Made by a program: the position numbers and the translations under genes
Notes under the pieces: generated by a model
The model's input: only the letters and a program-made list of their open reading frames with translations
The model's database searches: none
Told to the model about the DNA's origin: nothing
DNA from: Gammaproteobacteria bacterium
GTDB taxonomy: Bacteria > Pseudomonadota > Gammaproteobacteria > SZUA-152
Assembly: GCA_022627515.1 (NCBI GenBank)
Contig: JAKEGK010000030.1
Location: 1-39,717 of the forward strand
Length of the DNA: 39,717 nt
Direction of reading: 5' to 3'
Part shown: piece by piece, positions 17,960 to 39,216 of the stretch
Layout of the letters: each line of letters opens with the position of its first letter
How positions within the stretch are numbered: position 1 is the stretch's first letter

Positions 17960-17961
17960 AA

Positions 17962-19518
17962 CTAACCTCCAGTACCGGCTAGCATTCCATTGGCTGTTCT
18001 ATCTTTTAGAATGAGTTCATCGTCAAATGTATAAAAGTCTTTATCCAGCGCGACGCCATAATCATTGATGCCCAAAGCACGGATCGTTTGCACTATCAGG
18101 GGAATGGCCGCGGTGTCGCTATTGCCGGCTTTGACCTGTATAAACAACTTGGTCGGTAAGCTCTTTGCTTCCTGAAGTTGTCTGCGCATCTGCTCGATTG
18201 ACCGGGATGCTGAAATTGACATCAGCACAAAATCAAAGCGGCTAAGGTCGCTGTTCTCACCATAACGCCCGAACTTTGTTTTTGGGTGGAAATAGGTCAC
18301 AATCTTGCGGATTTTTTCCGCATGCTCGCGTTTTTGGCCTTCCAGCACAACGCCGTTAAACCAGCTCAACCGCGCCATGTCCGTGAAAAATTCTTCCGGC
18401 CTTTTAACATCGATGTTTTCGGGAATATGCAGGTAAATGTGGCGTATGTTAGCCCGGTTGCGGAGTTGATGGGTTACACGGTTTAAGATGTCCGCCGCGA
18501 CTTTTATTTCCTGGTTGGGAAAAAAGGCATGTTTCCCGTCGGCGGAAAAAGGCGAAAGAATGACGGTATTAATATCGGTTTGCTGCAGATTATCGAGCAA
18601 TGATGACAGCAGTTTTTCCTGCATTGCCTGAGGCTGCCCGCTGAATTTATCCAGGCTTATTTCAGTGAAACGATGGGTCTGCGAAAGCAGAGGTTCGTAT
18701 CTCAGGTCAGCGATAAAATCATCCATTTCCGTGTCCCGCATGACCATAATGCGGTTGAGAACCGGGATGTTCGCCTCGCTGTTCGGGCCGTCATCCAGGG
18801 TTAACTGGAAGCGCATGCCCAGCAAATTGGCTTCTCCGGCCAGAACATTATCGTAACTGCCATAGGGCCAGGTAATGCCTATTGGCGATATATTCAGTTC
18901 CTGCCGGAAGCGTTCAATGGTAAGTTTCAGATCGGCGGTGACGCGCTGGCGGAATTTAATTTCGGTTTCATAAGTGCCGGTTACAGGCGAGTAGATGCGC
19001 GTGACACCTGCCGGAGCAAAATTGCCCTGCGGATTGGATTGTACATTGGTGTGCAATTCATGGCTGTGCGAAATAATTTCTATCAGCGGCCTGTTTTTAA
19101 GTTCGCGCAGCCCGGACCAGGAAATCAATTTGTCTTTATACTCATCCGGCGGGTTATTGCCATCGACCCAGCCGCTTACCACGCTCAATACCGATGGATA
19201 ACCATATATGTCCAGCAACGGCGCTATGAATTCCTGGTAACTCTTCAATCCATCATCAAAGGTTAACAATAAGGCTTTATCAGGCAGGGATGCCTGTTTG
19301 TTCATGACTTTATCCAGAAACGCAAGCGAGACGGGTTGATAGCCCTGGGTTTGCAGGTAATCCATTTGCGCCACGAAGGCGGACCGGCTGATCGCGTATA
19401 CATCGCCGGCGGGATTCGCAACCACGTCATGGTAGGTCAGTACGGTTAATACGCTTCCTGTTGCCGTGCTGCTGGCGAACAACAGGAGAATTGTCATGAA
19501 CCAGGGAGAGCGTTTCAT
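17962..19518 (-). CDS. pgaB: PgaB-like poly-GlcNAc deacetylase with shortened C-terminal domain
   Basis: This 518-aa exported protein has a Sec signal peptide (MKRSPWFMTI to TATGS) without a lipobox cysteine, whereas E. coli PgaB is a lipoprotein. The CE4 polysaccharide deacetylase domain (~25-290) has TYHDV, TFDDG (Asp88/Asp89) and SHSHELH (His151 to His156) as metal and catalytic ligands, plus WPYGSYD. A C-terminal PgaB-type TIM-barrel region (~300-518) follows but is only ~220 residues, against ~360 in the 672-aa E. coli protein. It should remove acetyl groups from PNAG before export. It overlaps pgaA by 4 bp (ATGA) and is coupled to pgaC downstream. Confidence 0.9.
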   Translation of the reverse strand: MKRSPWFMTILLLFASSTATGSVLTVLTYHDVVANPAGDVYAISRSAFVAQMDYLQTQGYQPVSLAFLDKVMNKQASLPDKALLLTFDDGLKSYQEFIAPLLDIYGYPSVLSVVSGWVDGNNPPDEYKDKLISWSGLRELKNRPLIEIISHSHELHTNVQSNPQGNFAPAGVTRIYSPVTGTYETEIKFRQRVTADLKLTIERFRQELNISPIGITWPYGSYDNVLAGEANLLGMRFQLTLDDGPNSEANIPVLNRIMVMRDTEMDDFIADLRYEPLLSQTHRFTEISLDKFSGQPQAMQEKLLSSLLDNLQQTDINTVILSPFSADGKHAFFPNQEIKVAADILNRVTHQLRNRANIRHIYLHIPENIDVKRPEEFFTDMARLSWFNGVVLEGQKREHAEKIRKIVTYFHPKTKFGRYGENSDLSRFDFVLMSISASRSIEQMRRQLQEAKSLPTKLFIQVKAGNSDTAAIPLIVQTIRALGINDYGVALDKDFYTFDDELILKDRTANGMLAGTGG

Positions 19519-20831
19519 AGGAATTTCCTGGTGTAGCTGGCCAGAAAGGAGCCTACTGTTTCGCGTTCGCCGTCATAGATACGGCTGGCTGCTTCCAGCC
19601 ACCAGCTAAATGAATGAACAGGGCTGAAATCGTACTGTTGTTCATAGCTGGCGCCGTACGTTGCGTCGGCGCCATAACCTTCCTGATCATACTGACCCAG
19701 GAATACTGACAAGTGGTCCACGTGACTGTCATAACGGGAATCGAAGATAAAACTGGTTCTATGCACCACGGCAATAGTAGTGTCGCGTTCCGGATTGAAA
19801 TAAACAGTATTGTCTAATGTATTGGTCGAACCTGATAACTCCAGTATCACACGTTGCTCGCGCGTGTCTGTCATTTCGTAGGCATAACCCAGCGAGGTGT
19901 AATAAGACTCTCTGTCATTGCTATCGGAAAATTCATAGGCGGAGTAAGAACCATACCATTCCCACCGGTAATCAATGGTATGGAAAAATGCTGAGATTGT
20001 AAGGCGGTCGGAATCGACGCCCAGTGCTTTTGCGCGCAGCGGCACGTCTTCCGCGAAAGAAGCATATTGCCCGAAAACTTCCCAGAGTAAGGTGGGGTGA
20101 TAGACCAGTGTTGTCGTCGAACCGTTGTCACCGCCTTCGTCAATGTCCGTGGAAAATTCCTGCTCAAGATACCATTTGGGATCAAACCAGTACATGACGC
20201 CGGCGCCCACCCGGTTGAGATCGCCGGTGTCAAACTCGGGATCGTCCGCGAAAGTGGTAAAATACCGGGCAAACCAGCGGGCGGCGGGTGCGAATTGCCG
20301 TGAATATTTTATTTCAAAAAAGTAATCCTGATTGCCGGCGTCGGACTGGCCGGTACCGGCTTTGACGTTAAGTTCCGGTTTGCGGTCAATGACAATGTCA
20401 TTCAGTAATGACTTGTAAAGTGTTTTGATATCTTCGTTTTCCGGGTAAGCCCGGGCGCCTTCCCGTAAAACGGCTAACGCTTCGTCAGTTTGACGGGCTT
20501 TTCTCATGCACTCGGCAACAGCGCCAATCAAATAATCTTCCTTGCCGGGGTGATTTTTAATGGGCTGGAATTTTTCCAGCGCTTCATCGCAGTCGCCTTT
20601 CCACCCTGAAATCACCACGTAGTCACGGCGTATGGGATAGTTATCCGGGTGACTGGCTAATAAATCTTTTAGAATCACCAACGCCGCGTCATGCTGATCA
20701 GCGTGCGCCAGTTCAACCGCACGTTGATGCTCAGACTCGACAGATTTTTTTTCTTCCGCTTCCTGTTGCGCCAATGCATGCTGTAGCGGAAATGGCAGAA
20801 TCAATGCCAGTAAAATTGTACTAAACCGCAC
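19515..20831 (-). CDS. pgaA: PgaA-like outer-membrane PNAG export porin with TPR domain
   Basis: This 438-aa protein has a signal peptide cleaved after about ALAQ, an N-terminal TPR-like helical part (~40-150: AVELAHADQHDAALVILKDLL, EDYLIGAVAECMRKARQTDEAL) and a C-terminal region of alternating beta strands with an aromatic-rich end (YTRKFL), typical of an outer-membrane barrel. E. coli PgaA is 807 aa, so the TPR part here is much shorter. GTG at 20831 is preferred because AAGGAG lies eight bases upstream. GTG at 20840 would sit directly against that site. It is the first gene of pgaA-pgaB-pgaCD and overlaps pgaB. Confidence 0.85.
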   Translation of the reverse strand: MRFSTILLALILPFPLQHALAQQEAEEKKSVESEHQRAVELAHADQHDAALVILKDLLASHPDNYPIRRDYVVISGWKGDCDEALEKFQPIKNHPGKEDYLIGAVAECMRKARQTDEALAVLREGARAYPENEDIKTLYKSLLNDIVIDRKPELNVKAGTGQSDAGNQDYFFEIKYSRQFAPAARWFARYFTTFADDPEFDTGDLNRVGAGVMYWFDPKWYLEQEFSTDIDEGGDNGSTTTLVYHPTLLWEVFGQYASFAEDVPLRAKALGVDSDRLTISAFFHTIDYRWEWYGSYSAYEFSDSNDRESYYTSLGYAYEMTDTREQRVILELSGSTNTLDNTVYFNPERDTTIAVVHRTSFIFDSRYDSHVDHLSVFLGQYDQEGYGADATYGASYEQQYDFSPVHSFSWWLEAASRIYDGERETVGSFLASYTRKFL

Positions 20832-21069
20832 AATCCTCACTCCTTATTTCAACGTGTAAAGATTTTTGACAGAGTGAAGTTTAGAGACGGCTAACTATTA
20901 CACACGCGGACAATGCTAATTGTGGTGTTTGCGCCGGCTTTAATACTTCTTGCTACGAATTACAGTTTTTTCTCCCAATAAATATACTGATGGGATTATG
21001 GTAATTGTGGTTAGCTATAGTAGTGAACCACGTACGTATTAGACGCTAAGTCGATGTTAGCACAAGCTA

Positions 21070-21345: not shown

Positions 21346-21425
21346 GCCAGCCATATCAATGGGATGACAGCGCTTTCCCGCTGTCGAATGTGATGATCGA
21401 GCCAACAAGCAAGTGCTGCGACGCA

Positions 21426-22121
21426 ATGATGAAATCCAATTACTTACTGGTCGTAGAAGATGAATCCGCCATTCGGGATATGGTGGGATTCACCTTGGAG
21501 CGTGCGGGATTTGACTGGTCCGGCGCATCCGACGTCTCAGAAGCCGATAACCAGATTAATACCCGTCAACCGGCTCTTATAATCCTGGACTGGATGTTGC
21601 CCGGCTTAAGCGGAGTCGATTTTGCGCGCCGGGTACGGCGAAATGCCGCAACCCGGGATATCCCAATCATCATGTTGACGGCGCGCAGTGAAGAAGACGA
21701 CCGTATAAAAGGCCTGGATGCCGGTGCGGATGATTACATTTCCAAGCCTTTTTCCCCGCGTGAATTGATTGCCCGGGTTAAAGCGGTGTTGCGCCGCAGC
21801 CAAAACAACGAGCCGGACAGCAATCTCCAGGTCAACGCCTTGCGCCTTGATGCCACCAGTCACCGGGTGACGATTGAAAATCATCCGGTGGATATGGGAC
21901 CGACGGAATTCCGATTGTTACATTTTTTTATGACTCATCCGGATCGCGTATACAGTCGCAGTCAGCTCCTGGACAGTGTATGGGGCAACAATGTCTACAT
22001 CGAGGACCGCACCGTGGATGTGCACATTCGCCGGTTGAGAAAAGTGCTGGCCGTTCATGGATATGATACATTAATCCAGACTGTACGCGGTACCGGCTAT
22101 CGTTTCTCTGCACAGGTATAA
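21426..22121 (+). CDS. phoB: Phosphate regulon response regulator PhoB
   Basis: This 231-aa protein has a receiver domain (1-120) with VEDES, phospho-acceptor Asp55 in [17 protein letters not shown] and [10 protein letters not shown] PhoB-type winged helix follows, with [38 protein letters not shown] and VRGTGYRF. These are hallmark PhoB segments. The ATG at 21426 is chosen; the frame extends to 21390, but PhoB proteins begin close to the receiver domain. phoR starts 3 bp downstream. It should activate pstS and its own operon through the Pho boxes described here. Confidence 0.95.
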
Positions 22122-22124
22122 CCA

Positions 22125-23453
22125 TTGTCTAATCCTTGGATCAAAGAGTTTTGGCGTGTCGCCGCGCTGGGGTTATTAGCCCTTGCCATCGGTTTGATAA
22201 TCAATCAGGTCCTGGCCTCATTATGGTTCGCAACAACCGCATATCTCGCGTGGCATGTCTATAACCTGTATCGCCTGGAACAATGGATCATCAAGCGTCA
22301 AACCACTTCACCACCCGATGCCAAGGGCATTTGGGGCGAGGTGTTTTACCATATTTACAAACTCCAGCGCCGCAACCGCAAACGGAAAAAGAAACTGACG
22401 AACATGCTGGCCCGTTTTCAGGAATCCACGTCCGCGATGCCGGACGCGACCCTGGTATTGAATGCGGAAAACGAAATTGAATGGTTTAACAAAGCGGCAA
22501 TAATGTTGCTGGGATTGAATAAAATCCAGGATGCCGGGCAGCGGATTGATAATCTGGTGCGCACACCGGCGTTTGTAAACTACCTGATGCGCGGTAATTT
22601 CCGGCGGCCACTGGAAATTTTTTCACCCGAAAACCGCAATATCCGCCTTTCCATCAATATTGTCGGATATGGCAAAAGCAAAAAGCTGATGATCGTGCGG
22701 GATGTTACCCGCCTGCACCAACTGGAAAACATGCGCCGCGATTTTGTTGCCAATGTCTCCCATGAACTAAAAACACCGCTCACTGTTATCAACGGCTATC
22801 TGGAAAATCTGATGGATGCCGGCGATGAAAATACTTCGCAATGGTACGGTGTGCTCGACCAAATGCATCAGCAAAGCGAACGGATGGCGCAAATCGTCAA
22901 TGATTTGTTGCTATTATCCCGCCTGGAAACGGATGACGACAGTCAGTCGCGGGATCCTGTCGCAGTTCCGGCGCTCATCACGGCGATTGTTGAGGATTTG
23001 AATTCTTTGATTAACGAAAAACAACAAACCGTCGAAATGGATTGCGACTTTGATCTCTGGCTGCAAGGTAATGAAAAGGAACTGTATAGCGCGTTTTCCA
23101 ACCTGATCGTGAATGCTGTAAAGTACACGCCTGAAAAAGGCAAGATCACCCTGCGCTGGCAATTAAAGGGAGGGCAGCCCTACTTTGAAGTAAATGACAG
23201 CGGTATTGGCATCGCGCCGGAACATATACCTCGCCTGACGGAGCGTTTTTACCGCGTTGACAAGGGGCGGTCGCGGGATCAGGGCGGCACAGGATTGGGT
23301 CTGGCGATTGTTAAACACGTAATGATTCGTCATAACGCTAAATTAATGATCAGCAGCGAACCTGGAAAAGGCAGCAGTTTCCGCTGCGCATTCGCACCGG
23401 ATCGCATTTTGATGAAGCAAGCCGGTCAGGTCCAAAGTCTCCAAAGCGGTTAA
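22125..23453 (+). CDS. phoR: Phosphate regulon sensor histidine kinase PhoR
   Basis: This 442-aa kinase has one N-terminal hydrophobic hairpin (~12-45), a basic linker (RRNRKRKKK), a PAS domain (~98-190), a HisKA domain with His213 in VANVSHELKTPLTV and a HATPase domain with NLIVNAVKYTP, DSGIGI, RFYRV and GTGLGLAIV. There is no sizeable periplasmic domain, as expected for PhoR, which reads Pst transport status via PhoU. The start is TTG at 22125, 3 bp after the phoB stop and without a clear Shine-Dalgarno, so translation is probably coupled to phoB. The next in-frame ATG would remove the membrane part. Confidence 0.94.
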   Translation: MSNPWIKEFWRVAALGLLALAIGLIINQVLASLWFATTAYLAWHVYNLYRLEQWIIKRQTTSPPDAKGIWGEVFYHIYKLQRRNRKRKKKLTNMLARFQESTSAMPDATLVLNAENEIEWFNKAAIMLLGLNKIQDAGQRIDNLVRTPAFVNYLMRGNFRRPLEIFSPENRNIRLSINIVGYGKSKKLMIVRDVTRLHQLENMRRDFVANVSHELKTPLTVINGYLENLMDAGDENTSQWYGVLDQMHQQSERMAQIVNDLLLLSRLETDDDSQSRDPVAVPALITAIVEDLNSLINEKQQTVEMDCDFDLWLQGNEKELYSAFSNLIVNAVKYTPEKGKITLRWQLKGGQPYFEVNDSGIGIAPEHIPRLTERFYRVDKGRSRDQGGTGLGLAIVKHVMIRHNAKLMISSEPGKGSSFRCAFAPDRILMKQAGQVQSLQSG

Positions 23454-23492
23454 AATTCCGCCATTCCTGTTTTATTTTTAAATCCCCAGGTT

Positions 23493-23526
23493 CTGTAATA
23501 AAACTGTCATATTTTTGTAACATAAT
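23493..23526 (+). promoter_or_regulatory. Pho box and -10 of the pstS promoter
   Basis: CTGTAATAAAACTGTCAT (23493-23510) is a close match to the two-heptamer PhoB site, followed by exactly 10 bp and then CATAAT (23521-23526) as a -10. A third unit (TTGTAAC) sits in phase 11 bp further on. The predicted start point is near 23533, about 35 nt before pstS. Confidence 0.85.
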
Positions 23527-23567
23527 CTGCCGCACCTGTTTATCTAAAAACCTGTTGGAGAAACGAA

Positions 23568-24545
23568 ATGAGGAGAGCATTACATAGGGCTCTGTATTTG
23601 CCTGCTGTACTGTCGGTTTTTATTGCTGATCCCATGCTGGCGGACACCAAGATTGATTCCGCAATTCCTGAATACTCAAAAGCCAGTGGCGTTTCCGGAA
23701 ACGTGTCCAGCGTGGGTTCCGATACTCTGGCTAACCTGATGACACTGTGGGCGGAAGAATTCAAACGCCTTTATCCGAATGTCAATATCCAGATCCAGGC
23801 CGCCGGTTCGTCAACCGCGCCACCTGCCTTGACCGAAGGAACATCCAATCTTGGCCCCATGAGCCGGAAAATGAAAGACAAGGAAGTGGAAGCGTTTGAG
23901 AAGAAATACGGCTACAAACCGACAGGCATCCCGGTTGCGATCGATGCGCTGGCGGTTTATGTGCATAAAGACAATCCCCTGAACGGCTTAAGTATTCCCC
24001 AGGTGGATGCCATTTTTTCCGGTACCCGTAAATGCGGCCATGACAACGATATTACCAAATGGGATCAACTGGAATTAGGCGGCGCTTGGAAGGGCCGCGA
24101 TATCCAATTGTATGGCAGAAATTCAGTATCCGGCACTTACGGTTATTTCAAGGAAAAAGCTTTATGTAACGGGGATTTTAAAAACAGCGTCAATGAGCAG
24201 CCTGGCTCAGCGTCCGTGGTGCAGTCTGTTTCCACTTCCTTAAATGGAATTGGCTACTCAGGTATCGGCTATAAAACCTCGGGAGTAAAAGCGGTGCCGC
24301 TGGCCAAAAAAACCGGCGATCCGTTTGTGGAAGCAACAGCGGATAATGCTATTGAAGGCAGCTACCCTCTATCACGTTTTTTGTATGTATATGTAAATAA
24401 GCATCCCAACCGTCCGTTATCACCATTGGTTCTGGAATTTCTGAAGATGGTGCTATCCCAGACCGGCCAGGAAGTCGTGGTGAAAGATGGATATATTCCG
24501 CTTCCCGCAAAAGTCGCGGATAAGTATCTTAAGCAGATCCAGTAA
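23568..24545 (+). CDS. pstS: Phosphate ABC transporter substrate-binding protein PstS
   Basis: This 325-aa periplasmic phosphate-binding protein has a signal peptide to about PMLA, followed by [12 protein letters not shown] and [23 protein letters not shown], which supply the phosphate-binding loop. [18 protein letters not shown] and [10 protein letters not shown] complete the site. It delivers phosphate to PstCA. GGAG precedes the ATG at normal spacing. Its own Pho-box promoter and a downstream terminator (24576-24600) allow much higher expression than pstCAB, as is usual for this gene. Confidence 0.95.
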
Positions 24546-24575
24546 GCAAAACATATAAATTGAACTGATTTTACG

Positions 24576-24600
24576 AAGCCCCTGTTGAGGGGCTTTATAT
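24576..24600 (+). terminator. Intrinsic terminator/attenuator between pstS and pstC
   Basis: AAGCCCC (24576-24582) pairs with GGGGCTT (24589-24595) around TGTTGA, followed by TATATT rather than a pure U-run. It probably gives partial termination after pstS. Confidence 0.7.
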
Positions 24601-24844
24601 TAAGGCTGGCCGTTTTATGGAAGTCGCGGACAGGATTCACTGACGGCCGGATATATTACATTTTTACGGCGGATTTCGTTTATAATGACGCGCTTGGCGC
24701 CGCAGTTTTAAACACTGATTGAAAAATATATTACTGCTGGCTTTTTGAATACGCTCTGAATATCCGTTACCTCCGCATTCAGCCATTAATTGAAATGCCA
24801 CAATAGATAAAACAATCGGCGGATGACGCATATGTCTGCAAATT
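24601..24844. other. Region between the pstS terminator and pstC
   Basis: No gene is seen here. A TATAAT hexamer at 24681-24686 could be a -10 for pstC, but no matching -35 or Pho box is present, so read-through from pstS may be the main source of pstCAB mRNA. Confidence 0.35.
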
Positions 24845-27112
24845 ATGCCTACTGAAAACACTTCGTTGCTGGAACATCGTAAGGAAGCGCTTGCCCGCCG
24901 GCGGAAATGGCGCACGTTCATCGATATTACGGCAAATTATGGAGTGGGCTTTGGGGGCGTAAGTGTCATCATTGCAATTGTGCTGATATTTTTCTATTTG
25001 CTTTATGTGGTGCTGCCGCTTTTCGCCAATGCATCAATTCAAGTCATGGGAGAATATTCTGCGCCGGGCGGCAGTGATTACTCTAGCGAACTCATTGCAC
25101 TTGAAGAGCAAAATGAAATTGGCGTGCGTTTTACTCATGGCGGCCATGCTATTTTTTTTAACGCCGGAACCGGGAATATAATCGAAGATGTAACCCTGGC
25201 CATCCCACCCGGGACAGCGATTACCAGTTTTACGCAGGGCAATCCCGTTACCCGCCTTGTTGCTTACGGATTGTCGAACGGCCGCGTCATTGTCGCGAGG
25301 CATCAGTATCAGCTTAGCTATCCCAGCGACCAGCGGGTTATAACGCCAAGGATAGAATATCCGTTCGGCGAAGAAGCGCTGCTCATCGATGAAAAAGGAA
25401 GAGCGATTAGTCAACTGGAATTGCGCGCAACCGGCGAAGCGTTGTCAGTGGTTGCGTTGCTGGAAGACGCTGAAGTGCTGATTGCGCATTATGACCGGCA
25501 GGAGTCACTGCTGGAAGAAGAAGTTTCCCTGCAACGCACGGTTTTTACCGTGGATCATGGCATGGATTTCGTGGAATACCTGTTGCTTGACAAGGAGCAG
25601 CGCAATTTGTATCTCGCGGACCGGTCCGGCGCGGTCCGGCACTATGACCTCAGTGACAGGGAAAGCGCCGTGCTGCTGGGCACCACCAGTGTTATTGAGC
25701 AAGGCGCGCAAATCAGCTGCTTCGCTTTTCTGGGCGGTGAATTGTCCTTGCTGGTTGGGGATACCAGGGGACGAATTTCACAGTGGTTTACTTCGCAAGA
25801 TGCGCTGGGCAACAAGAAACTGGTTCGGGTGCGTCAATTTCAGCTGGACAATTACCCAATCATTGCAATTGCGCGGGAAGAACGCCGCAAAGGCTTTGTT
25901 GCCGCGGATGACAAAGGCAATGTTGGTATTTTTCATTCCACGGCAGAGCGCCGCTTACTGGTGGAACAGACCCCGCAGCCCGTGAAATTTTTGGGGCTAT
26001 CACCAAGGGCCAATGCTTTGTTGATTGAAGACAAAGCAGGTTCCTACCGCTTCTGGAAAATTCATAACGAACATCCGGAAATTTCCTGGTCCTCCCTCTG
26101 GGGTAAGGTCTGGTACGAAAGTTATGGTGAATCCCGTTATATCTGGCAGTCTTCATCCGCAAGCAACGATTTTGAACCCAAGCTGAGCCTTACTCCGCTG
26201 GTGTTTGGCACGTTCAAAGGCGCTTTTTATGCCATGTTGTTTGCAGTTCCGCTAGCCATCATGGGCGCAATCTATACCGCCTACTTCATGGCGCCCCGCA
26301 TGCGCCGCATGGTAAAACCCAGTATCGAAACCATGGAAGCGTTGCCGACGGTAATTCTGGGGTTTCTGGCGGGACTATGGCTGGCGCCGTTTGTGGAAGA
26401 CCATTTGCCGGGAATTTTCAGCCTGCTGTTGGTTCTCCCCGTGGGCGTGCTGATAGCGGCTTATTGCTGGCATGCGCTGCCCGGCCGTATTAAACACCGG
26501 ATTCCCGATGGCTGGACCGCCGCGTTATTGGTCCCCGTGGTGTTGTTAATCAGCTGGATCTCGCTCTCTCTCAGCCAGCCGCTGGAACTATGGTTGTTCG
26601 ATGGCAATATGCGGAGCTGGTTAACGAATGAAATGGGTGTCAGCTTCGACCAGCGTAACGCGCTGGTCGTTGGTTTTGCGATGGGATTCGCCGTGATCCC
26701 TAATATATTTTCCATTGCGGAAGACGCCATTTTCAGTGTTCCCAAACACTTAACCATTGGTTCATTGGCGCTCGGCGCCACTCCCTGGCAAACAATGATG
26801 CGGGTTGTGCTGCTGACGGCAAGTCCCGGTATTTTTTCCGCTATTATGATTGGTCTTGGACGCGCGGTAGGGGAAACCATGATTGTATTGATGGCAACGG
26901 GCAACACCCCGGTGATGGATATGAGTATTTTCCAGGGCATGCGCACTCTGGCCGCGAACACAGCGGTTGAGATGCCCGAGTCGGAAGTTGACAGCACGCA
27001 TTACCGGGTGCTGTTTCTGGCGGCGCTGGTGTTATTCATGATGACGTTTTTGTTCAATACTCTCGCGGAACTTATCCGCCAGCGTCTCAGGGTTAAATAC
27101 AGTTCACTATGA
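24845..27112 (+). CDS. pstC: Phosphate ABC transporter permease PstC, long form
   Basis: This 755-aa inner-membrane permease has a first membrane segment at ~34-60, then a ~390-residue periplasmic region (~62-450) of repeated short beta blades (LLLDKEQRNLYLADRSGAVRHY, KGFVAADDKGNVGIF) that looks like a beta-propeller. The canonical PstC permease domain follows (~455-755) with EALPTVILGFLAG, GLGRAVGETMIVLMATGN and TMRTLA-like GMRTLAANTA. E. coli PstC is only 319 aa; the long form is known in gammaproteobacteria such as Pseudomonas. The ATG at 24845 lacks a clear Shine-Dalgarno. It overlaps pstA by 4 bp. Confidence 0.93.
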   Translation: MPTENTSLLEHRKEALARRRKWRTFIDITANYGVGFGGVSVIIAIVLIFFYLLYVVLPLFANASIQVMGEYSAPGGSDYSSELIALEEQNEIGVRFTHGGHAIFFNAGTGNIIEDVTLAIPPGTAITSFTQGNPVTRLVAYGLSNGRVIVARHQYQLSYPSDQRVITPRIEYPFGEEALLIDEKGRAISQLELRATGEALSVVALLEDAEVLIAHYDRQESLLEEEVSLQRTVFTVDHGMDFVEYLLLDKEQRNLYLADRSGAVRHYDLSDRESAVLLGTTSVIEQGAQISCFAFLGGELSLLVGDTRGRISQWFTSQDALGNKKLVRVRQFQLDNYPIIAIAREERRKGFVAADDKGNVGIFHSTAERRLLVEQTPQPVKFLGLSPRANALLIEDKAGSYRFWKIHNEHPEISWSSLWGKVWYESYGESRYIWQSSSASNDFEPKLSLTPLVFGTFKGAFYAMLFAVPLAIMGAIYTAYFMAPRMRRMVKPSIETMEALPTVILGFLAGLWLAPFVEDHLPGIFSLLLVLPVGVLIAAYCWHALPGRIKHRIPDGWTAALLVPVVLLISWISLSLSQPLELWLFDGNMRSWLTNEMGVSFDQRNALVVGFAMGFAVIPNIFSIAEDAIFSVPKHLTIGSLALGATPWQTMMRVVLLTASPGIFSAIMIGLGRAVGETMIVLMATGNTPVMDMSIFQGMRTLAANTAVEMPESEVDSTHYRVLFLAALVLFMMTFLFNTLAELIRQRLRVKYSSL

Positions 27113-28764
27113 TTAAGGATTGGATTAAATCCGGCAATCCCTGGATCTGGCTGACAGCGTCCGCAGTCAGCGTCAGCCTGATCCTGGTATTTGGATTGCT
27201 TTTATTAATCGCCACGCGCGGGCTTGCGCATTTCTGGCCAAAAGACCTGCTGGCGATAACCTACCTTGACCGTGCCGGGGAAACCAGGAATTTCATTGGT
27301 GAAATTCATGGTTCCGAAATTGTCAGCGCGGAACGGCTTCGCGATTCCGGTTTTGATATTAACGTGGATAACACACTCTATGAACGGTTGCTGTTGAAAA
27401 TCGGAAACCGCGATCTGGGCGGTCAGGATTTCAAGTGGGTTGTCCGGAGCCGTATCCAGCAACAATCCCTGCCGGCGGCTGTTTTCGCCGCGGAACGCCG
27501 GGAGTGGGGCAATTTCTACGGTTATCTTGTTGCGGTAAAACAGGAAGGTGAAATAGTTGCACAAGGCGAACATGCGGTCTCCGCCTTGGAGGAGCGGTTG
27601 GGCCGGGCCCAGGAGCTATACGAACAGATCCGGGATATCGAAAAGGATGAGATCGGCGCCATTAACTACGGCATGGAACGGCTCCGGTTGAAGCAGCGCA
27701 AAATGGAGCTGGATAAAAATGACAGCCCGGAAAATTTACAATCCATAGAACAGGAACGCAGTGAGTACCGGCAGCAATATGATGCCTTGCAGAATCAGTT
27801 GATAAAACTCTATAAGGACATCGAGCGTGACGCCATCGTAGCCAAAACGGCGGATGGACAGGAAGTTGATTTGCCCCTGGCGAAAATCGTCCGCGTTTAT
27901 TATCCCAATGCCATGTCATTATTTGGCAAAGTTCTATTTTATCTGGAAAAGATCCTGGAATTCGTCAGCGACGAACCAAGGGAAGCCAACACGGAAGGCG
28001 GTGTATTTCCCGCGATATTCGGCACTGTGATGATGGTTATGATCATGTCGGTAATGGTGACGCCCTTTGGCGTGGTGGCGGCGGTTTATTTGCGGGAATA
28101 TGCAAAACAAGGCATATTAACCAGGACGATCCGTATCGCCGTCAACAATCTGGCCGGCGTGCCTTCGATTGTATATGGCGTTTTTGGGCTGGGTTTTTTT
28201 GTGTATTTTTTGGGGGGCAACATTGACCAGTTATTTTTTCCTGAATCGGCGCCATCCCCGATGTTCGGAACCCCCGGCATATTGTGGTCTTCCCTTACAT
28301 TGGCCATTCTTACTGTGCCGGTGGTTATCGTTGCGACGGAAGAAGGCTTATCACGCATTCCCAAGGCCATTCGCGAAGGAAGCCTGGCGCTCGGCGCCAC
28401 CAAGGCGGAAACCTTGTGGCGTACAGTGCTGCCGATGGCGAGCCCTGCGGTCATGACAGGATTAATTCTGGCCATTGCGCGCGCAGCGGGTGAAGTGGCG
28501 CCGTTGATGCTAGTTGGCGTGGTAAAACTGGCGCCATCTTTGCCAATGGATGCCAATGCGCCGTTTCTGCACCTGGACCGGAAATTTATGCATTTGGGTT
28601 TCCATATCTATGATGTCGGGTTTCAGAGTCCCAATGTCGAGGCGGCGCGGCCCCTGGTGTATGCGACGGCATTACTGCTGGTGCTGGTCATCGTAGTGCT
28701 TAACCTGACCGCCATCGCGATCAGAAATCATTTGCGTGAAAAATACCGCTCGCTTGAACAATAA
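27109..28764 (+). CDS. pstA: Phosphate ABC transporter permease PstA, long form
   Basis: This 551-aa permease has a first membrane segment at ~13-35, then a large periplasmic insert containing a strong coiled-coil (~155-240, with RLRLKQRKMELDKND and SIEQERSEYRQQYDALQNQL). The permease domain follows (~295-551) with NNLAGVPSIVYGVFGLGFF, EGSLALGATKAETLWRTVLP and AIARAAGEVAPLMLVG, all typical of PstA. E. coli PstA is 296 aa. The start overlaps the pstC stop (ATGA). The coiled-coil and the PstC propeller-like domain are probably partners on the periplasmic face. Confidence 0.93.
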   Translation: MIKDWIKSGNPWIWLTASAVSVSLILVFGLLLLIATRGLAHFWPKDLLAITYLDRAGETRNFIGEIHGSEIVSAERLRDSGFDINVDNTLYERLLLKIGNRDLGGQDFKWVVRSRIQQQSLPAAVFAAERREWGNFYGYLVAVKQEGEIVAQGEHAVSALEERLGRAQELYEQIRDIEKDEIGAINYGMERLRLKQRKMELDKNDSPENLQSIEQERSEYRQQYDALQNQLIKLYKDIERDAIVAKTADGQEVDLPLAKIVRVYYPNAMSLFGKVLFYLEKILEFVSDEPREANTEGGVFPAIFGTVMMVMIMSVMVTPFGVVAAVYLREYAKQGILTRTIRIAVNNLAGVPSIVYGVFGLGFFVYFLGGNIDQLFFPESAPSPMFGTPGILWSSLTLAILTVPVVIVATEEGLSRIPKAIREGSLALGATKAETLWRTVLPMASPAVMTGLILAIARAAGEVAPLMLVGVVKLAPSLPMDANAPFLHLDRKFMHLGFHIYDVGFQSPNVEAARPLVYATALLLVLVIVVLNLTAIAIRNHLREKYRSLEQ

Positions 28765-28804
28765 ACGTGAACAATAAAAATGTGAGCATTGAACGAGGAT
28801 TGTC

Positions 28805-29650
28805 ATGAATAACGAAATGCCAAAAAGAACGCCCACGCATGCCATCGATATTGAAGCATTGGGGCGGATGCAGAGCCGGGTCGATCCTGAATCAGCCGAG
28901 ACCTGCCTGGAGGTAAAAAATCTCAGTCTCTTTTATGGGGAAAAACAGGCGCTATTTGACATTAACATGAAAATTCCCAAACAAAAGGTCACCGCTTTTA
29001 TTGGGCCAAGCGGTTGCGGTAAATCCACATTGCTGCGCTGCATGAATCGTATGAATGACTTGGTTGATGATTTGAAAATTAACGGCGAATTGTTACTGGA
29101 TAACGAAAACATTTATGCCAAATCGGTCGATGTTGCTGAATTGCGCCGCCGTGTAGGTATGGTTTTTCAAAAGCCCAATCCGTTTCCCAAGTCTGTCTAT
29201 GAAAATGTCGCTTATGGATTGCGTCTGCAGGGCATCAACAGCAGGCGCACACTGGACGAAGTGGTGGAGCGGGCATTGAAGCGGGCGGCATTATGGGATG
29301 AAGTACGTGACCGGTTGCATGACAATGCGTTGGGTCTGTCCGGCGGTCAGCAGCAACGATTGGTCATAGCCCGCGCGGTGGCCATTGAACCGGAAGTATT
29401 GCTATTGGACGAGCCGGCCTCCGCCCTCGATCCTATATCGACATTGAAGATAGAAGAACTTATATACGAATTGAAAGACAAATATACTATCGTGATCGTA
29501 ACCCACAATATGCAGCAAGCAGCCCGGGTTTCGGATTGCACAGCGTTTTTGTATATGGGTAAGCTGATCGAGTTTGGCGATACCAATCAGTTGTTTACCA
29601 ATCCCAGAAAAAAACAGACCGAGGATTATATTACCGGCCGCTATGGATAG
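28805..29650 (+). CDS. pstB: Phosphate ABC transporter ATP-binding protein PstB
   Basis: This 281-aa ABC ATPase has Walker [10 protein letters not shown] (67-75), the PstB-typical [10 protein letters not shown] after it, the Q-loop [22 protein letters not shown] segment, signature LSGGQQQRL, Walker [14 protein letters not shown] and switch His in VTHNM. It energises phosphate import through PstCA. A ~30-residue N-terminal extension precedes the ABC domain. It begins 40 bp after pstA. Confidence 0.96.
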
Positions 29651-29757
29651 GGTTCGCTATCGCACGAAATTGAATACGCGCTGTGTGCTGCTTAACGTTT
29701 TGATTATCGGGTGCGATCGTCCTACACTAAGATAAAGAGTTGAATCCGGAGTTTCAA

Positions 29758-30471
29758 ATGGATAAGAATTCACTAGGTCATCATATATCACAACAGTTCA
29801 ACGCTGAACTGGAGGACATCCGGTCCAAAGTACTGGCGATGGGCGGACTGGTTGAGCAGCAGATCCAGGATGCGCTAAACGCCCTGGTGACTGCCAATGT
29901 TGAACTGGCCGAGAATGTCGTAAAAAATGACGTCAAGGTTAACGCCCTGGAAGTGAATATCGATGAGGAGTGCGCACGCATATTGGCGCGCCGTCAACCG
30001 GCGGCAAGTGATTTGCGCCTGATCGTAGCGGTAATCAAGACTATTACTGATCTGGAGCGCATTGGCGACGAAGCGGAAAAGGTTGCGCGCATGGCGGCTG
30101 AACTTGCCAATCTGGAACGGCCGCGCAATCAGTATCATGAAACCCAGCATCTGGGGGAGAGCGTCCAGCACATGGTGCATGACGCCCTGGATGCCTTCGC
30201 CAGAATGGATGTAGAAGCGGCGTTAAAAGTCGCGCTCTATGATGAGGAAGTGGATCTAAAATACGAAGGAATTCTGCGTCAGCTCATCACCCATATGATG
30301 GAAGATCCGCGCTCCATCAAGCGGGTGATGGATGTGATCTGGTCCATCCGCGCCCTGGAACGCATTGGTGATCACGCCAAGAATATTTGTGAATACATTA
30401 TTTATCTTGTAAAAGGGAAAGATGTGCGCCACCTGGGATTTGATGTCATTGAAAAGGAACTGCGCCCCTGA
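29758..30471 (+). CDS. phoU: Phosphate transport system regulator PhoU
   Basis: This 237-aa all-helical protein is made of two PhoU three-helix repeats, each with the metal-binding E(D)xxxD pattern: NIDEECARILARRQPAASDLR with ITDLERIGDEAEKVA, then DEEVDLKYEGILRQ with IRALERIGDHAKNICEYI. It links Pst transport activity to PhoR and restrains the Pho response. ATG at 29758 is chosen because GGAG lies seven bases upstream; a TTG at 29740 would add six residues. It is the last gene of the pst-phoU cluster and converges on the ABC permease gene. Confidence 0.96.
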   Translation: MDKNSLGHHISQQFNAELEDIRSKVLAMGGLVEQQIQDALNALVTANVELAENVVKNDVKVNALEVNIDEECARILARRQPAASDLRLIVAVIKTITDLERIGDEAEKVARMAAELANLERPRNQYHETQHLGESVQHMVHDALDAFARMDVEAALKVALYDEEVDLKYEGILRQLITHMMEDPRSIKRVMDVIWSIRALERIGDHAKNICEYIIYLVKGKDVRHLGFDVIEKELRP

Positions 30472-35133: not shown

Positions 35134-35577
35134 TTAATCAAAAATCCGGACCGCCAGTACATCGCAATCCGCATGATGCAATACCGCGTTTGCTGTCGAT
35201 CCCAGCAACAACTTTACTCCGTGCCGGCCGTGAGAACCAAGCACAATAAGATCAACTTTGTTTTCCTTTGCGTATTGCACGATTTCGTTAGCGGCATTAC
35301 CGAATTCATAGACAACATTCGTACCCTGCATGTTTAATTTTTTCAGCAGTTGCTCAATAGGCGCCTTGGCGTTATTGATTAACTCTTCATTGGGAATTGT
35401 GTAGGTGGGGGTAATCAATGCTGTTTCGCCGAATCCCATGTAGGGAAGATAATCGATAGTGTGAATGACAGTAAGCACGGTTTTGTTCGATAACACAAGT
35501 TCCTGCGCTTTTCGCAATATCTGCTCTGCCGAGTCCGTAAGATCGATTGCTGCCAGTATATTTGAATAGGTGCTCAT
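35134..35577 (-). CDS. Universal stress protein (UspA family)
   Basis: This 147-aa single-domain Usp begins YSNILAAIDLTDSAEQIL. The ATP-binding motif G-x2-G-x9-G(S/T) is seen in GSHGRHGVKLLLGSTANAVL, and the C-terminal strand is CDVLAVRI. ATP binding is therefore likely. ATG at 35577 is preferred over 35595 because GGAG lies about eight bases upstream. It lies next to the low-potential cytochrome genes, and in Pseudomonas several usp genes are anaerobically induced by ANR, but no FNR box was seen directly upstream of this one. Confidence 0.93.
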   Translation of the reverse strand: MSTYSNILAAIDLTDSAEQILRKAQELVLSNKTVLTVIHTIDYLPYMGFGETALITPTYTIPNEELINNAKAPIEQLLKKLNMQGTNVVYEFGNAANEIVQYAKENKVDLIVLGSHGRHGVKLLLGSTANAVLHHADCDVLAVRIFD

Positions 35578-35639
35578 GATATTGCTCCGCTGCAATGGCC
35601 TATAACCGACGTTTTACAAATAATGTTCTATAAACAACG

Positions 35640-36023
35640 TTAGTTGTTCTTTGCTCCTTGCTGAATCCATTGTTTAATCGAGTCGCGCTCCACTTGCGGC
35701 AAAATTTGCAGTGAACCGTGCGGCATGGTAATGGCTGGATCCGCCTTGCCCTCAATGGTCAGTACGAGGCTGCTGGACAGCGGGTTGCCCGGCACGATAA
35801 CCGGTCCAAACCTGGTGCCTTTCATCAATGTGTCATAGGTTTCCATATTAAGGCCGCTTTTTTTGAACCCCTCGCCTTCACTGTTATGACAGGAAAGGCA
35901 ACGGCTGACGAGAATTGGATTGACCTGTTTGGAAAAACTGACCTCACCCGTTGATGATTTGCCGCAACCGGTCAACAGGAAGAGTGTGATGCTCAACCAG
36001 AATAAGTAAACGATGCGCGCCAT
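35640..36023 (-). CDS. Monoheme c-type cytochrome lipoprotein (PSCyt1-like)
   Basis: This 127-aa protein has a lipoprotein signal peptide with lipobox LTGC (Cys20), then a single heme-binding CLSCH (42-46) and a possible methionine ligand in ITMPHG. The pattern NPILVSRCLSCHNSEG followed by SGLNMETYDTLMKG and VIVPGNPLSSSLV is typical of the planctomycete-type cytochrome C domain (PSCyt1), here standing alone. It should be anchored to an envelope membrane and transfer electrons in the periplasm. ATG at 36023 is preferred (GGAG five bases upstream) over the GTG at 36029. It is divergent from the soluble cytochrome gene. Confidence 0.88.
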   Translation of the reverse strand: MARIVYLFWLSITLFLLTGCGKSSTGEVSFSKQVNPILVSRCLSCHNSEGEGFKKSGLNMETYDTLMKGTRFGPVIVPGNPLSSSLVLTIEGKADPAITMPHGSLQILPQVERDSIKQWIQQGAKNN

Positions 36024-36110
36024 TTTCACTCCGGATAGGATTGCGTGTTAGCCGTGGCAACTGTAATCTCTATAAAAATAATAGTCTGATATTGTTGAAT
36101 TATTTGTTTA

Positions 36111-36124: not shown

Positions 36125-36205
36125 GTAACTCTGGAATGATTGTAACTAAAATAATCACGTTCTACAAAAGAAGCTTAATCAAAACGAAAACATAAGGAGT
36201 TGAAC

Positions 36206-36511
36206 ATGAAAATGGTTGCTGGAGCATTAATGGTTGCCGTAACTTTGTGCATGAGCGATATGGCTGTTGCGGGTGATGCCGCAGCAGGCAAGACAAAGAG
36301 TGAGGCATGTGTAGGTTGTCACGGTATGAATGGCCATAGTAACAATCCAAATAATCCCAACCTTGCCGGGCAGAAGAAAAGCTATCTCATCAAGGCAATG
36401 AAAGATTACAAGGACGGCAAGCGCCAGGATCCAATGATGAGTTCACTGATGGCCGGATTAACCGACGCCGATATGGAAAATCTTGCTGAGTTTTACAGCA
36501 CGGTAAAATAA
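36206..36511 (+). CDS. Small soluble c-type cytochrome (class I, c553/c5-like)
   Basis: This 101-aa periplasmic cytochrome has a signal peptide to about MAVA, heme-binding CVGCH (35-39), PNLAGQKKSYLIKAM and a methionine ligand in DPMMSSLMAGL (Met77 or Met78), ending with the AEFYSTV helix. It resembles single-domain c553/c4-type electron carriers. ATG at 36206 is preferred, with AAGGAG six bases upstream; TTG at 36200 lies inside that site. The upstream class II FNR-like promoter suggests more expression at low oxygen. Physiological partners are unknown. Confidence 0.93.
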   Translation: MKMVAGALMVAVTLCMSDMAVAGDAAAGKTKSEACVGCHGMNGHSNNPNNPNLAGQKKSYLIKAMKDYKDGKRQDPMMSSLMAGLTDADMENLAEFYSTVK

Positions 36512-36522
36512 CTGGCAGGCAG

Positions 36523-36593
36523 GGCGGTTAGCTAAAGCTTTGCCGGATAAAAACAGCAACCGGATTTTAATTAGACTGTTTTTGCTAACCGCC
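36523..36593. terminator. Interrupted inverted repeat between convergent cytochrome c and HupH-like genes
   Basis: GGCGGTTAGC (36523-36532) and AAAAACAG (36549-36556) pair with the continuous CTGTTTTTGCTAACCGCC (36576-36593), the left arm being split by 16 bp. The right arm includes the last codons of the HupH-like gene. It may serve as a bidirectional terminator, but efficiency is doubtful. Confidence 0.4.
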
Positions 36594-37008
36594 TGTCCAG
36601 CACAGTTACACTGTATTCAACATCCTCGCGTTGCGCGGGAAGGATGCTGGGCACATACGATATATAGATTGACTTGGTCAGTATGGCGCCTGTGTTATTG
36701 ATATGACGCACCCACCACACGCCATGAATATTGGTTTCCTGTATCTGGTCGCAGCCAAAAATCGTCAACGTGGCGGAAACCTCGCCTTTACCCAATATTT
36801 CCTTCAATCTTTCCTCACACTCTTCATCGCAAGGCGTGTTATTCAGGTCAATAATCGTTTCCTGCCCGGTTTTTAACAGATTGTGTAATGCTGTTTTTAT
36901 TTCTGACAGGATTGTTATCAAAGGGCTGCCCTGTTTTTTAACCATGGCAGAATCAAAGGAAACTACATTAGGATTCTTCATATCTGTATGTTGCATTTTC
37001 ATAACCAT
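36571..37008 (-). CDS. Half-length HupH/HyaF-like hydrogenase-associated protein
   Basis: This 145-aa protein matches the C-terminal conserved region of HupH/HyaF hydrogenase expression proteins in the run GKGEVSATL, then ETNIHGVWWVRHINNTGAIL (88-110) and SYVPSILPAQREDV. Full-length HupH/HyaF proteins are ~285 aa, so only one such domain is present. No hydrogenase structural or hyp genes are in the window. ATG at 37008 is preferred; ATGs at 37002 and 36996 are possible, and the longer frame to 37146 would run through the upstream FNR-like site. The role here could be hydrogenase maturation with genes elsewhere, or assembly of another metalloprotein. Confidence 0.72.
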   Translation of the reverse strand: MVMKMQHTDMKNPNVVSFDSAMVKKQGSPLITILSEIKTALHNLLKTGQETIIDLNNTPCDEECEERLKEILGKGEVSATLTIFGCDQIQETNIHGVWWVRHINNTGAILTKSIYISYVPSILPAQREDVEYSVTVLDRRLAKTV

Positions 37009-37114
37009 CTCTTTCCCAGGCCAAAGTCCACGTGGCAATATTGGAGAAATTGTTCCAACCGCTCTTGCGCAGTTATTCAATGTTAAATTTAAAATCTTTA
37101 CGACACAAAATACC

Positions 37115-37128
37115 TTGATATAAGTCAA
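37115..37128. promoter_or_regulatory. Near-perfect FNR/ANR-type site upstream of the HupH-like gene
   Basis: TTGATATAAGTCAA matches nine of ten consensus bases. On the minus strand TTAAAT lies at class II distance but is a weak -10 (four of six). The site is ~107 bp upstream of the ATG at 37008. Confidence 0.45.
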
Positions 37129-37348
37129 AAGCACTTTTATCAACACGGGTATTTTATGAGTAGTTTGGTAAAGATCAAATAAAACCAGCCATCGGAACAG
37201 CCGAAATATAAGTAATTTATTATCGAATTAACAGATTCACGGGGATTTGAATTAACTTCTGTGAACGTTTACCGTCCATGGCGCGGGTCTGGTTCAGGAT
37301 GTCCCGCGGCGCAACGATAAACGGTAAAACAGCCTGCGCCTGGAAAAT

Positions 37349-38509
37349 TCACTGTTTTGGCGCATATACCCGCAGCTTTAATGCCTTGAGTTCCTGTTCG
37401 ATGTCATCCGGGATATCGGTGCCCCGGGAACCCGAATAGGAAAAGGTAATATAAGCTTCGTATTCGTCATAACATTTCTGCGCGTAGGGGTGGGAGGTAT
37501 ATTGCAGCATGCACTCTTTCAGGTACATGTCCGCCAGTGAATAATAAAAACTGTAGTCAGTGGACCGGTCAATGATAGCAAGCCAGTAGAGTATGACGGG
37601 AATTTCCTCCCTGGGCGGCAGCGTATTCAAATAATGGTATAGTCGCCCCCGTAACCAGACACGTGAGACTTTTTCTTTTTTGCTGGGAAAGTCAGCGGCG
37701 CCTGGATCATGCAGCGGCCCCAGAATTTTATCAACATAAAGCTTTAATTGCGCCATGTCCGGACTTGCTGCGGCGGAAACCTGTTGTTGCCTTAAATCTT
37801 CCAGGCCAGCCAGCCATTCTTCAAGGTTTTTCCGGCTGTACTTGGTATGGCGGGGGTTATCCCGTAATTTGGTTAATTCATTTAAAGCGTCTTCCGGCCG
37901 GTTATAAACCTGGGTATTGATGGTCAGAATCCGTTTCATCACGGTCATTAAGTCGGCTTCCGACAATTCTCCAGCTGATGTTAGATATTTAAGGTAGTGA
38001 GCCATGGCCGTAACGTAATTGCGGGTCATATAACTGAATTCGGCAAATTGAAGATCGTTGCCAAACCGGTCTCTGCCTACATCACTGAATAAAGTGCGCA
38101 GTTGCGGATCCTGCGTGTGGCATGAACTGCAAACTGAAACAAATTCCTTGACAATATTTATTGCATGCCGGTAATTGTCGTGTTTCATGGCAACCATGGC
38201 GTCCGCCAGCTGAGTATGAATGACTTCGAAGGAAATGCGGTATGTGGGTGACCTGATATCAAAATGCGGCTTTGCTTCGTTAAACAAGGTGTCGAGTTTC
38301 GAGACCGCGTCATTCAATTGTTGCCGCCCGGCGGATTGCTCCATTGCCTTTTCATCGAAAAGCACCGGAAATAATCCCTGCACGGTCTGGCCGATCTTCA
38401 CCATGATCTCGTTTACGGATACCGCGGAACTTTTTTCAAATAAATTGGTGGTGGCGATGAGAGCCAGAACCACCACGGATGCTATGACAAGCCATTTAGC
38501 GTGTTTCAT
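37349..38509 (-). CDS. Unrecognised membrane-anchored monoheme protein: cytochrome c'-like domain plus helical-repeat domain
   Basis: I do not recognise this 386-aa protein as a named family. It starts with a signal anchor (~5-23), followed by a helical domain (~32-135). A single CSSCH (127-131) lies in the last helix, the arrangement of cytochrome c' four-helix bundles. The remaining ~240 residues are helix pairs with aromatic residues (EFSYMTRNYVTAMAHYLKYL, PVILYWLAIIDRSTDYSFYYSL), like TPR/alpha-solenoid repeats, and end without a membrane segment. It should sit in the periplasm. AGGTGAT precedes the ATG. A class II FNR-like site lies 64 bp upstream, suggesting expression at low oxygen. 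Functions from NO or ligand sensing to assembly scaffold are possible. Confidence 0.78.
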   Translation of the reverse strand: MKHAKWLVIASVVVLALIATTNLFEKSSAVSVNEIMVKIGQTVQGLFPVLFDEKAMEQSAGRQQLNDAVSKLDTLFNEAKPHFDIRSPTYRISFEVIHTQLADAMVAMKHDNYRHAINIVKEFVSVCSSCHTQDPQLRTLFSDVGRDRFGNDLQFAEFSYMTRNYVTAMAHYLKYLTSAGELSEADLMTVMKRILTINTQVYNRPEDALNELTKLRDNPRHTKYSRKNLEEWLAGLEDLRQQQVSAAASPDMAQLKLYVDKILGPLHDPGAADFPSKKEKVSRVWLRGRLYHYLNTLPPREEIPVILYWLAIIDRSTDYSFYYSLADMYLKECMLQYTSHPYAQKCYDEYEAYITFSYSGSRGTDIPDDIEQELKALKLRVYAPKQ

Positions 38510-38766: not shown

Positions 38767-39216
38767 CTATTTCTCGTTACCTTTCTTTTCCCGCTTTTTA
38801 AAGCGTTTGTCCCATTTTTTGAATTTCTTGCGGCAGTACTTGTCCAGTGACTCGTAACTGTCGAAATATTTTTTGTAATCTTCCTCGGCCGGGCCATCAA
38901 ATTCACAGCAATCATTGGAGTGCTCACGGCAGATTTGCGGCCGTTTTTCATAAATTCCGCAACCGCCATCCGGCTGCAGATGCAGGCAGGGATTCGCGGC
39001 GCTCAGGAACCAGCCATCGTCGTCCTGAAAGACACTGACATTCCTGTGCGACACCAGCCACAACAGGTAATCGTAGTCCATCATGGATCGCGGCGTTTCG
39101 AGTTGCTGCGTAACGTAAGTGCAGCAAATGGAGTGTTTGCACAAAGTACATTTGTTTTCCGGAGTTACTTTGATATTTTTCGGTAAATCTTTAATAGTAA
39201 AAAACTCAAATGCCAT
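38767..39216 (-). CDS. YkgJ-family cysteine-cluster protein
   Basis: This 149-aa protein has the YkgJ (CxxCxxxxCC) cluster: CTLCKHSICC (Cys23, 26, 31, 32), NPCLHL (Cys77), GGCGIYEKRPQIC (Cys86, Cys96) and DCC (103, 104). The family is predicted to bind zinc or an iron-sulfur centre. The C-terminal 30 residues are very Lys/Arg-rich. There is no signal peptide, so it is cytoplasmic. It is encoded just downstream of ppk1 on the same strand (149-bp gap) and may be co-transcribed. Function unknown. Confidence 0.85.
   Translation of the reverse strand: MAFEFFTIKDLPKNIKVTPENKCTLCKHSICCTYVTQQLETPRSMMDYDYLLWLVSHRNVSVFQDDDGWFLSAANPCLHLQPDGGCGIYEKRPQICREHSNDCCEFDGPAEEDYKKYFDSYESLDKYCRKKFKKWDKRFKKREKKGNEK

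Follow-up and report, generated by a model that had tools for sequence, protein, structure and literature searches.

The window, that is, the whole stretch of 39,717 nucleotides of gammaproteobacterial DNA analysed here, carries on its minus strand a gene (37349–38509) that, judging from its open reading frame, its homologues and a structural model, encodes a protein of 386 residues made up of a signal sequence, a heme c bundle of the class II type and a TPR-like solenoid. The Sec signal sequence covers residues 1–29 (38423–38509, minus strand, as are all features of the gene), with uncertain cleavage in the window copy. It is followed by a four-helix bundle and linker (residues 30–142; 38084–38422), delimited by an AlphaFold model and by fold matches to cytochrome b562 and engineered cb562, and by the TPR-like helical solenoid (residues 143–386; 37352–38083), assigned from the model and from generic matches of the TPR and 14-3-3 type. 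The open reading frame has exactly one CxxCH, C127-S-S-C-H131, within the motif CSSCHTQD (residues 127–134; 38108–38131), whose conservation and alignment to the CxxCH of cb562 mark it as the putative heme c attachment site, with His131 as the proximal ligand. Met36 (38402–38404) is the predicted distal heme ligand, and Cys333 (37511–37513) and Cys346 (37472–37474) are probable disulfide partners. In an alignment of 68 sequences the single CxxCH sits at the same position in all 67 heme-bearing members, and the window protein is 54% identical to the copy in a sister genus and 36–44% identical to those of other Gammaproteobacteria. The conservation of the bundle CxxCH and of the helical C-terminal half is far beyond chance.

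Pfam and NCBIfam searches with the window protein returned no family above cutoff, the cytochrome b562 family (PF07361) scoring 12.9 bits over residues 54–131 against a cutoff of 30, and a sequence search of the PDB returned no significant family, its best b562 chain reaching an E-value of only 0.72. The Cytochrom_C_2 family (PF01322) gave no match in the window protein and none in the window's genome. Weak matches to TssR_C (E 0.05) and sigma70 (0.13) were dropped as chance. The combination of a class II bundle with a solenoid was found described nowhere in the literature searched, of which subscription papers were only partly covered. Thus, the statement of the initial annotation that no described family has such a build held up in the Pfam, NCBIfam, PDB sequence and literature searches. 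Exported bacterial proteins that join a heme bundle to a helical scaffold are so far uncharacterised as a type, and none of the family libraries searched covers them; the protein is a cytochrome of the class II kind that is novel by its fusion to a helical-repeat domain.

Upstream of the gene lies a protein with a CxxCxxCC metal-chelating domain (38767–39216, minus strand) and downstream one with a HupH_C domain (36571–37146, minus strand), in both cases with synteny only in the sister genus. Further along are a small monoheme cytochrome c (36200–36511, plus strand; Cytochrom_C, E 1.3e-9), a PSCyt1-type monoheme cytochrome (35640–36029, minus strand; E 1.6e-9) and a UspA-like protein named by sequence reading (35134–35595, minus strand), the same gene being present at one homologous locus, L012; Usp genes recur in further homologous loci. 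No hydrogenase genes were seen near the HupH_C-domain gene, which itself stands beside the cytochromes. The series of CxxCxxCC, cytochrome, HupH_C, UspA and MacAB-like transporter genes was discarded as an operon clue, being confined to the window and the sister genus. Elsewhere in the window lie an AAA_33/zeta-toxin-like kinase domain fused to an APH-like phosphotransferase domain (9693–11261), a pga-like poly-GlcNAc operon (16208–20840) with glycosyltransferase and PgaD-like domains in one open reading frame (16208–17959), and a PhoB/PhoR-like pair followed by a PstS-like protein, two long BPD_transp_1 permeases and an ABC ATPase (21390–30471).

Heme bundle, repeat domain and export

The folds and the heme ligation of the family are predicted. 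In an AlphaFold model of the whole protein, built from an alignment of 13 sequences (pLDDT 82.3, pTM 0.76), the bundle helices span residues 32–50, 59–86, 88–109 and 113–130, and CSSCH closes helix D, in agreement with the initial annotation, which had placed a lone CSSCH in the last helix of an N-terminal bundle. Structure prediction and fold search concur that this half resembles the four-helix bundle of b562/cb562: structures of cb562 are the top Foldseek matches (prob 0.99, TMt 0.61–0.68), and VIA-align superposes residues 30–130 of the model onto residues 1–101 of 5xzj_A (Z 10.6, rmsd 2.2, 89 aligned), Z values of 10–12 being attainable by helical bundles without kinship, so that the correspondence of the ligands carries more weight than the score. 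The offset of this alignment maps Met36 onto Met7 and His131 onto His102 of b562, the two ligands of the iron in that protein, and at the heme end a sequence alignment likewise pairs CSSCH with the CxxCH of engineered cb562. Sequence profiles link the family to b562 only marginally, with E-values from about 0.08 upwards.

Position 36 is Met and position 127 Cys in 67 of the 68 sequences, and Cys130 and His131 are kept in every one; the sole exception, a Coxiellaceae copy (L022), has lost both Met36 and Cys127. A remote subfamily (L061, L062 and L064) retains the Met and the CxxCH, and a profile of L061 and L062 recovers the window protein at E 2.9e-9 in a reciprocal profile search. A conserved Met36 at the distal position predicts a six-coordinate, low-spin His/Met heme, which would be of the c556/b562-like kind rather than the open, five-coordinate cytochrome c' type. 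The heme of cytochromes c' is five-coordinate, and in the cases compared in PMC11365222 the distal residue is Leu16, Tyr16 or Phe16. Thus, of the cytochrome c' arrangement originally proposed for this protein, the bundle and the placement of the CxxCH stand, whereas the distal residue is a conserved Met and the closest solved fold is that of b562/cb562. The conserved Met turns an apparent candidate gas sensor into a candidate for electron transfer.

The C-terminal half, when modelled alone, is a confident all-helical structure (pLDDT 90.6, pTM 0.87), and its 244 residues match the roughly 240 residues of helical repeats that had been noted after the bundle. Its fold search returned only generic helical-repeat matches, for example to the TPR proteins Sti1, LGN and LapB and to proteins of the 14-3-3 type, and whole-domain alignments have an rmsd of 12–18, so that superposition is limited to sub-blocks; the Pfam TPR profile has no match in the window protein. 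The repeat domain is also found by itself. One genome (G007) encodes, besides a full-length family protein, a secreted paralogue of 294 residues (L006, 1333–2217) that consists of the repeat domain only and has the same YSGS-type motif at its end, and at two loci from the same type of 1.4 Mb Coxiellaceae genome (L022, 7905–8996; L029, 1489–2580) the repeat domain is kept and the heme site lost. This persistence without heme suggests that the domain has a function of its own. Loss of the heme-attachment system was ruled out as the route to heme-site loss in Coxiellaceae, given the presence of CcmE.

The N terminus is hydrophobic in all 68 homologues, with A-x-A following it in 21 and a lipobox-like motif in three. 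No clear cleavage site is seen in the window copy, so an uncleaved anchor is possible there. As far as these sequences indicate, such an anchor would not be a family trait, though conceivable in the window copy, and the membrane anchoring assumed in the initial annotation is unconfirmed. In addition, positions 333 and 346 are both Cys in 65 of the 68 sequences and both Ala in the same remaining three, the pattern that a disulfide bond in an exported protein would produce.

Distribution and link to cbb3 oxidase

The family is common in Bdellovibrionota and sporadic in Gammaproteobacteria. Matches were found in 11 of 369 genomes sampled from the window's class, in 2 of 398 from its phylum, namely the window's own genome and a spurious one (L034 of G477, rejected as a helicase-like protein), and in 105 of 192 genomes from the phylum of the genome carrying locus L021, searched as Bdellovibrionota, with many matches of full length and some in tandem pairs. 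Relatives are common in predatory-type bacteria. A contig scan of genomes with the single window sequence gave no matches and an alignment-based scan found the homologues; tblastn against plasmids gave no match. In the tree, the window-type Gammaproteobacterial copies adjoin L021, L087 and L097 (SH-aLRT 99), and this position beside Bdellovibrionota copies suggests either transfer or shared descent, with long branches blurring the details. At four Bdellovibrionota loci (L081, L089, L093 and L095), tandem pairs of family genes adjoin SelO and CoA-binding genes; the two members of a pair belong to different clades, which indicates an old duplication.

The neighbourhoods of homologues were surveyed in 40 stretches taken from the Bdellovibrionota search, which were picked by family score irrespective of neighbourhood. 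What recurs is a cbb3 oxidase cluster comprising DsbD_2, CcoG, CcoP, CcoQ (a gene of 60–72 residues, named by its place only), a fused CcoNO and CcoI. In these stretches together with L021, 10 family genes have CcoNO or CcoN/CcoO next to them and an eleventh has CcoG. CcoNO or its companions adjoin the gene at L079, L080, L083, L086, L087, L092, L099, L111 and L117; at L085 a second family gene stands beside a CcoG-like open reading frame, with CcoO 2–3 kb further; and at L021 the family gene is followed by those for a diheme cytochrome, COX1 and FixO. Where the arrangement is divergent, DsbD_2 and CcoG are closest to the family gene, with CcoP, CcoQ, CcoNO and CcoI beyond them. The chance estimate for proximity to cbb3 genes assumed 0.5% per locus. 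On the tree, the cbb3-neighbour label needs 8 changes and is thus scattered over several deep lineages, having been retained or gained repeatedly. Neighbouring cbb3 genes are absent from about three-quarters of the loci in Bdellovibrionota and from every locus in Gammaproteobacteria, including that of the window, and most loci have no neighbours in common. Genes for CBS-domain proteins also recur nearby, at 16 loci, as do those for beta-CASP metallo-hydrolases and PAS histidine kinases, at 9 loci each, and those for Usp proteins. The architecture, the single heme site, the conserved Met and the recurrence of cbb3 genes next to the family gene within one phylum are all read from sequence.

The family and the oxidase also co-occur. 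In 43 genomes of the Bdellovibrionota search, a strong CcoO match is present in 21 of 23 carriers (all except G785 and G907) and in 2 of 20 non-carriers (Fisher p 5e-8), a contrast confounded by ancestry and size, since the non-carriers mostly have smaller genomes and may represent distinct lineages. Among Gammaproteobacteria, FixO is matched in all 10 heme-bearing carriers of one set and also in the window's genome (G000), G002, G004 and G007, the match being only weak in G004, G059, G075 and G338. The window's genome has a canonical CcoO, with CcoN and CcoG, and the FixO match of G004 belongs to a divergent COX1/FixO-like cluster. The Coxiellaceae genome G127, which has a heme-less copy, contains CcmE and gives no CcoO match, and a heme-bearing mate from its family does have a CcoO match. 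Non-carriers from the same family as the window's genome mostly have FixO matches; thus, a cbb3 oxidase does not require the family protein. Three loci (L122, L123 and L124, from G004, G059 and G075) hold an unusual heme-copper oxidase cluster in which a divergent COX1 and a FixO-like protein of 317–331 residues are accompanied by an FGE-sulfatase-domain and a thioredoxin-like gene, with a second COX1 piece in L122.

Proposed role and alternatives

With moderate confidence, we propose that the protein is a periplasmic class II cytochrome (c556/b562) that is docked by its solenoid and feeds electrons to a cbb3 oxidase, or matures it, under low oxygen, a function suggested by gene context. The exported apoprotein would receive one heme c at CSSCH, and ligation of the iron by His131 and Met36 would make this a low-spin heme suited to electron transfer. 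Through the fused TPR-like solenoid, the heme would then be docked to a partner in the membrane or periplasm, most likely a heme-copper oxidase of the C type (cbb3) or one of the proteins that supply or assemble it, so that electrons might be passed to the oxidase, or its maturation helped, at low oxygen. We infer the docking, the electron transfer and the same role for the window copy. The cbb3 oxidases are respiratory enzymes of microoxic niches, and their copper supply is aided by CcoG, CcoI and CcoS (PMC8267372). A heme-containing scaffold for a periplasmic complex, as suggested earlier, is in line with the TPR-like domain and with the cbb3 genes that recur next to the family gene.

Within the same context, the protein could instead be a cbb3 assembly factor, whose solenoid would hold an oxidase subunit or a copper-handling protein and whose heme would give or take electrons in maturation. 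TPR-type domains are a characteristic feature of chaperones and assembly factors, which counts for this unlikely reading, as does the fact that DsbD_2 and CcoG lie nearest in the divergent arrangement; CcoG reduces cupric copper and CcoI exports copper (PMC8267372). However, a conserved His/Met heme has no known necessity in cbb3 assembly factors, and the genes that directly follow at L021 are those of a cytochrome c and of oxidase subunits, not of maturation proteins. A carrier role is preferred over that of an assembly factor. The recurrence of CBS, Usp, beta-CASP and PAS-kinase genes nearby, with a UspA-like gene near both the window copy and L012, would suit a redox protein acting in a general response to low oxygen or energy stress, with partners other than cbb3, but these neighbours are mostly cytoplasmic and widespread and their counts are raw, and we regard such a role as improbable.

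The sensing or scavenging of NO or CO put forward in the initial annotation is weakened by the Met predicted to face the heme iron in 67 of 68 homologues, where the cytochromes c' compared in PMC11365222 have Leu, Tyr or Phe, and no NO-metabolism gene is among the recurrent neighbours of the loci surveyed. A protein that senses, carries or scavenges these gases like cytochrome c', with its scaffold relaying the signal or delivering it to a complex, would nevertheless accord with the bundle and CxxCH placement of cytochrome c'-alpha. A conserved sixth ligand need not bar gas binding: the small anammox cytochrome pair NaxLS is called NO-binding in the title of its paper, as cited in PMC8388095, and the Met here might be displaced. 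In addition, the family profile weakly touches PDB entries 6r6m-o, labelled 'small soluble cyt c' (E 0.02–0.09). Taken as a whole, we hold a gas-related role to be quite improbable; the heme protein probably moves electrons in low-oxygen respiration and is probably not a gas sensor.

The oxidase-linked cytochrome may be taken one step further, though doubtfully: it could be an undescribed, phylum-wide component of cbb3-type respiration, its scaffold holding a His/Met cytochrome at the oxidase or at a bc1-cbb3 supercomplex. Found chiefly in Bdellovibrionota, it would apparently be shared with some Gammaproteobacteria. If the link to cbb3 is right, an unrecognised partner is added to the main low-oxygen oxidase of many bacteria. 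Class II cytochromes are known as small free-standing proteins; here one is fused to a large, putative docking domain, and the fusion occurs in over half of the genomes sampled in the phylum searched as Bdellovibrionota.

Comparison with known systems

Like TPR scaffolds, the family has a predicted solenoid, which matches them in parts, but it lacks a Pfam TPR match and only sub-blocks superpose. With cytochrome c' of the alpha type it shares the bundle fold and a CxxCH near the end of the last helix (67 of 68), and it differs at the sequence level in having a conserved Met for the non-coordinating Leu, Phe or Tyr of cytochrome c', as well as in its fused solenoid. The resemblance to cytochrome b562 and engineered cb562 lies in the four-helix bundle and in the axial ligands, a His at the end of helix D and a Met early in helix A; in contrast, the heme b of b562 is non-covalent whereas the heme of the family would be covalently bound via CxxCH, PF07361 scores far below cutoff, and a solenoid is fused to the bundle. 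As for cytochrome c556 (PF01322), the family is set apart by the fused solenoid and by the absence of a PF01322 match, hhalign against this family giving a weak probability of 58 over the last 37 columns only. Nevertheless, sequence and model together point to the same features in both, namely export, a CxxCH at the end of the bundle and a Met in helix A, which in several of the aligned PF01322 members follows a YRQ motif.
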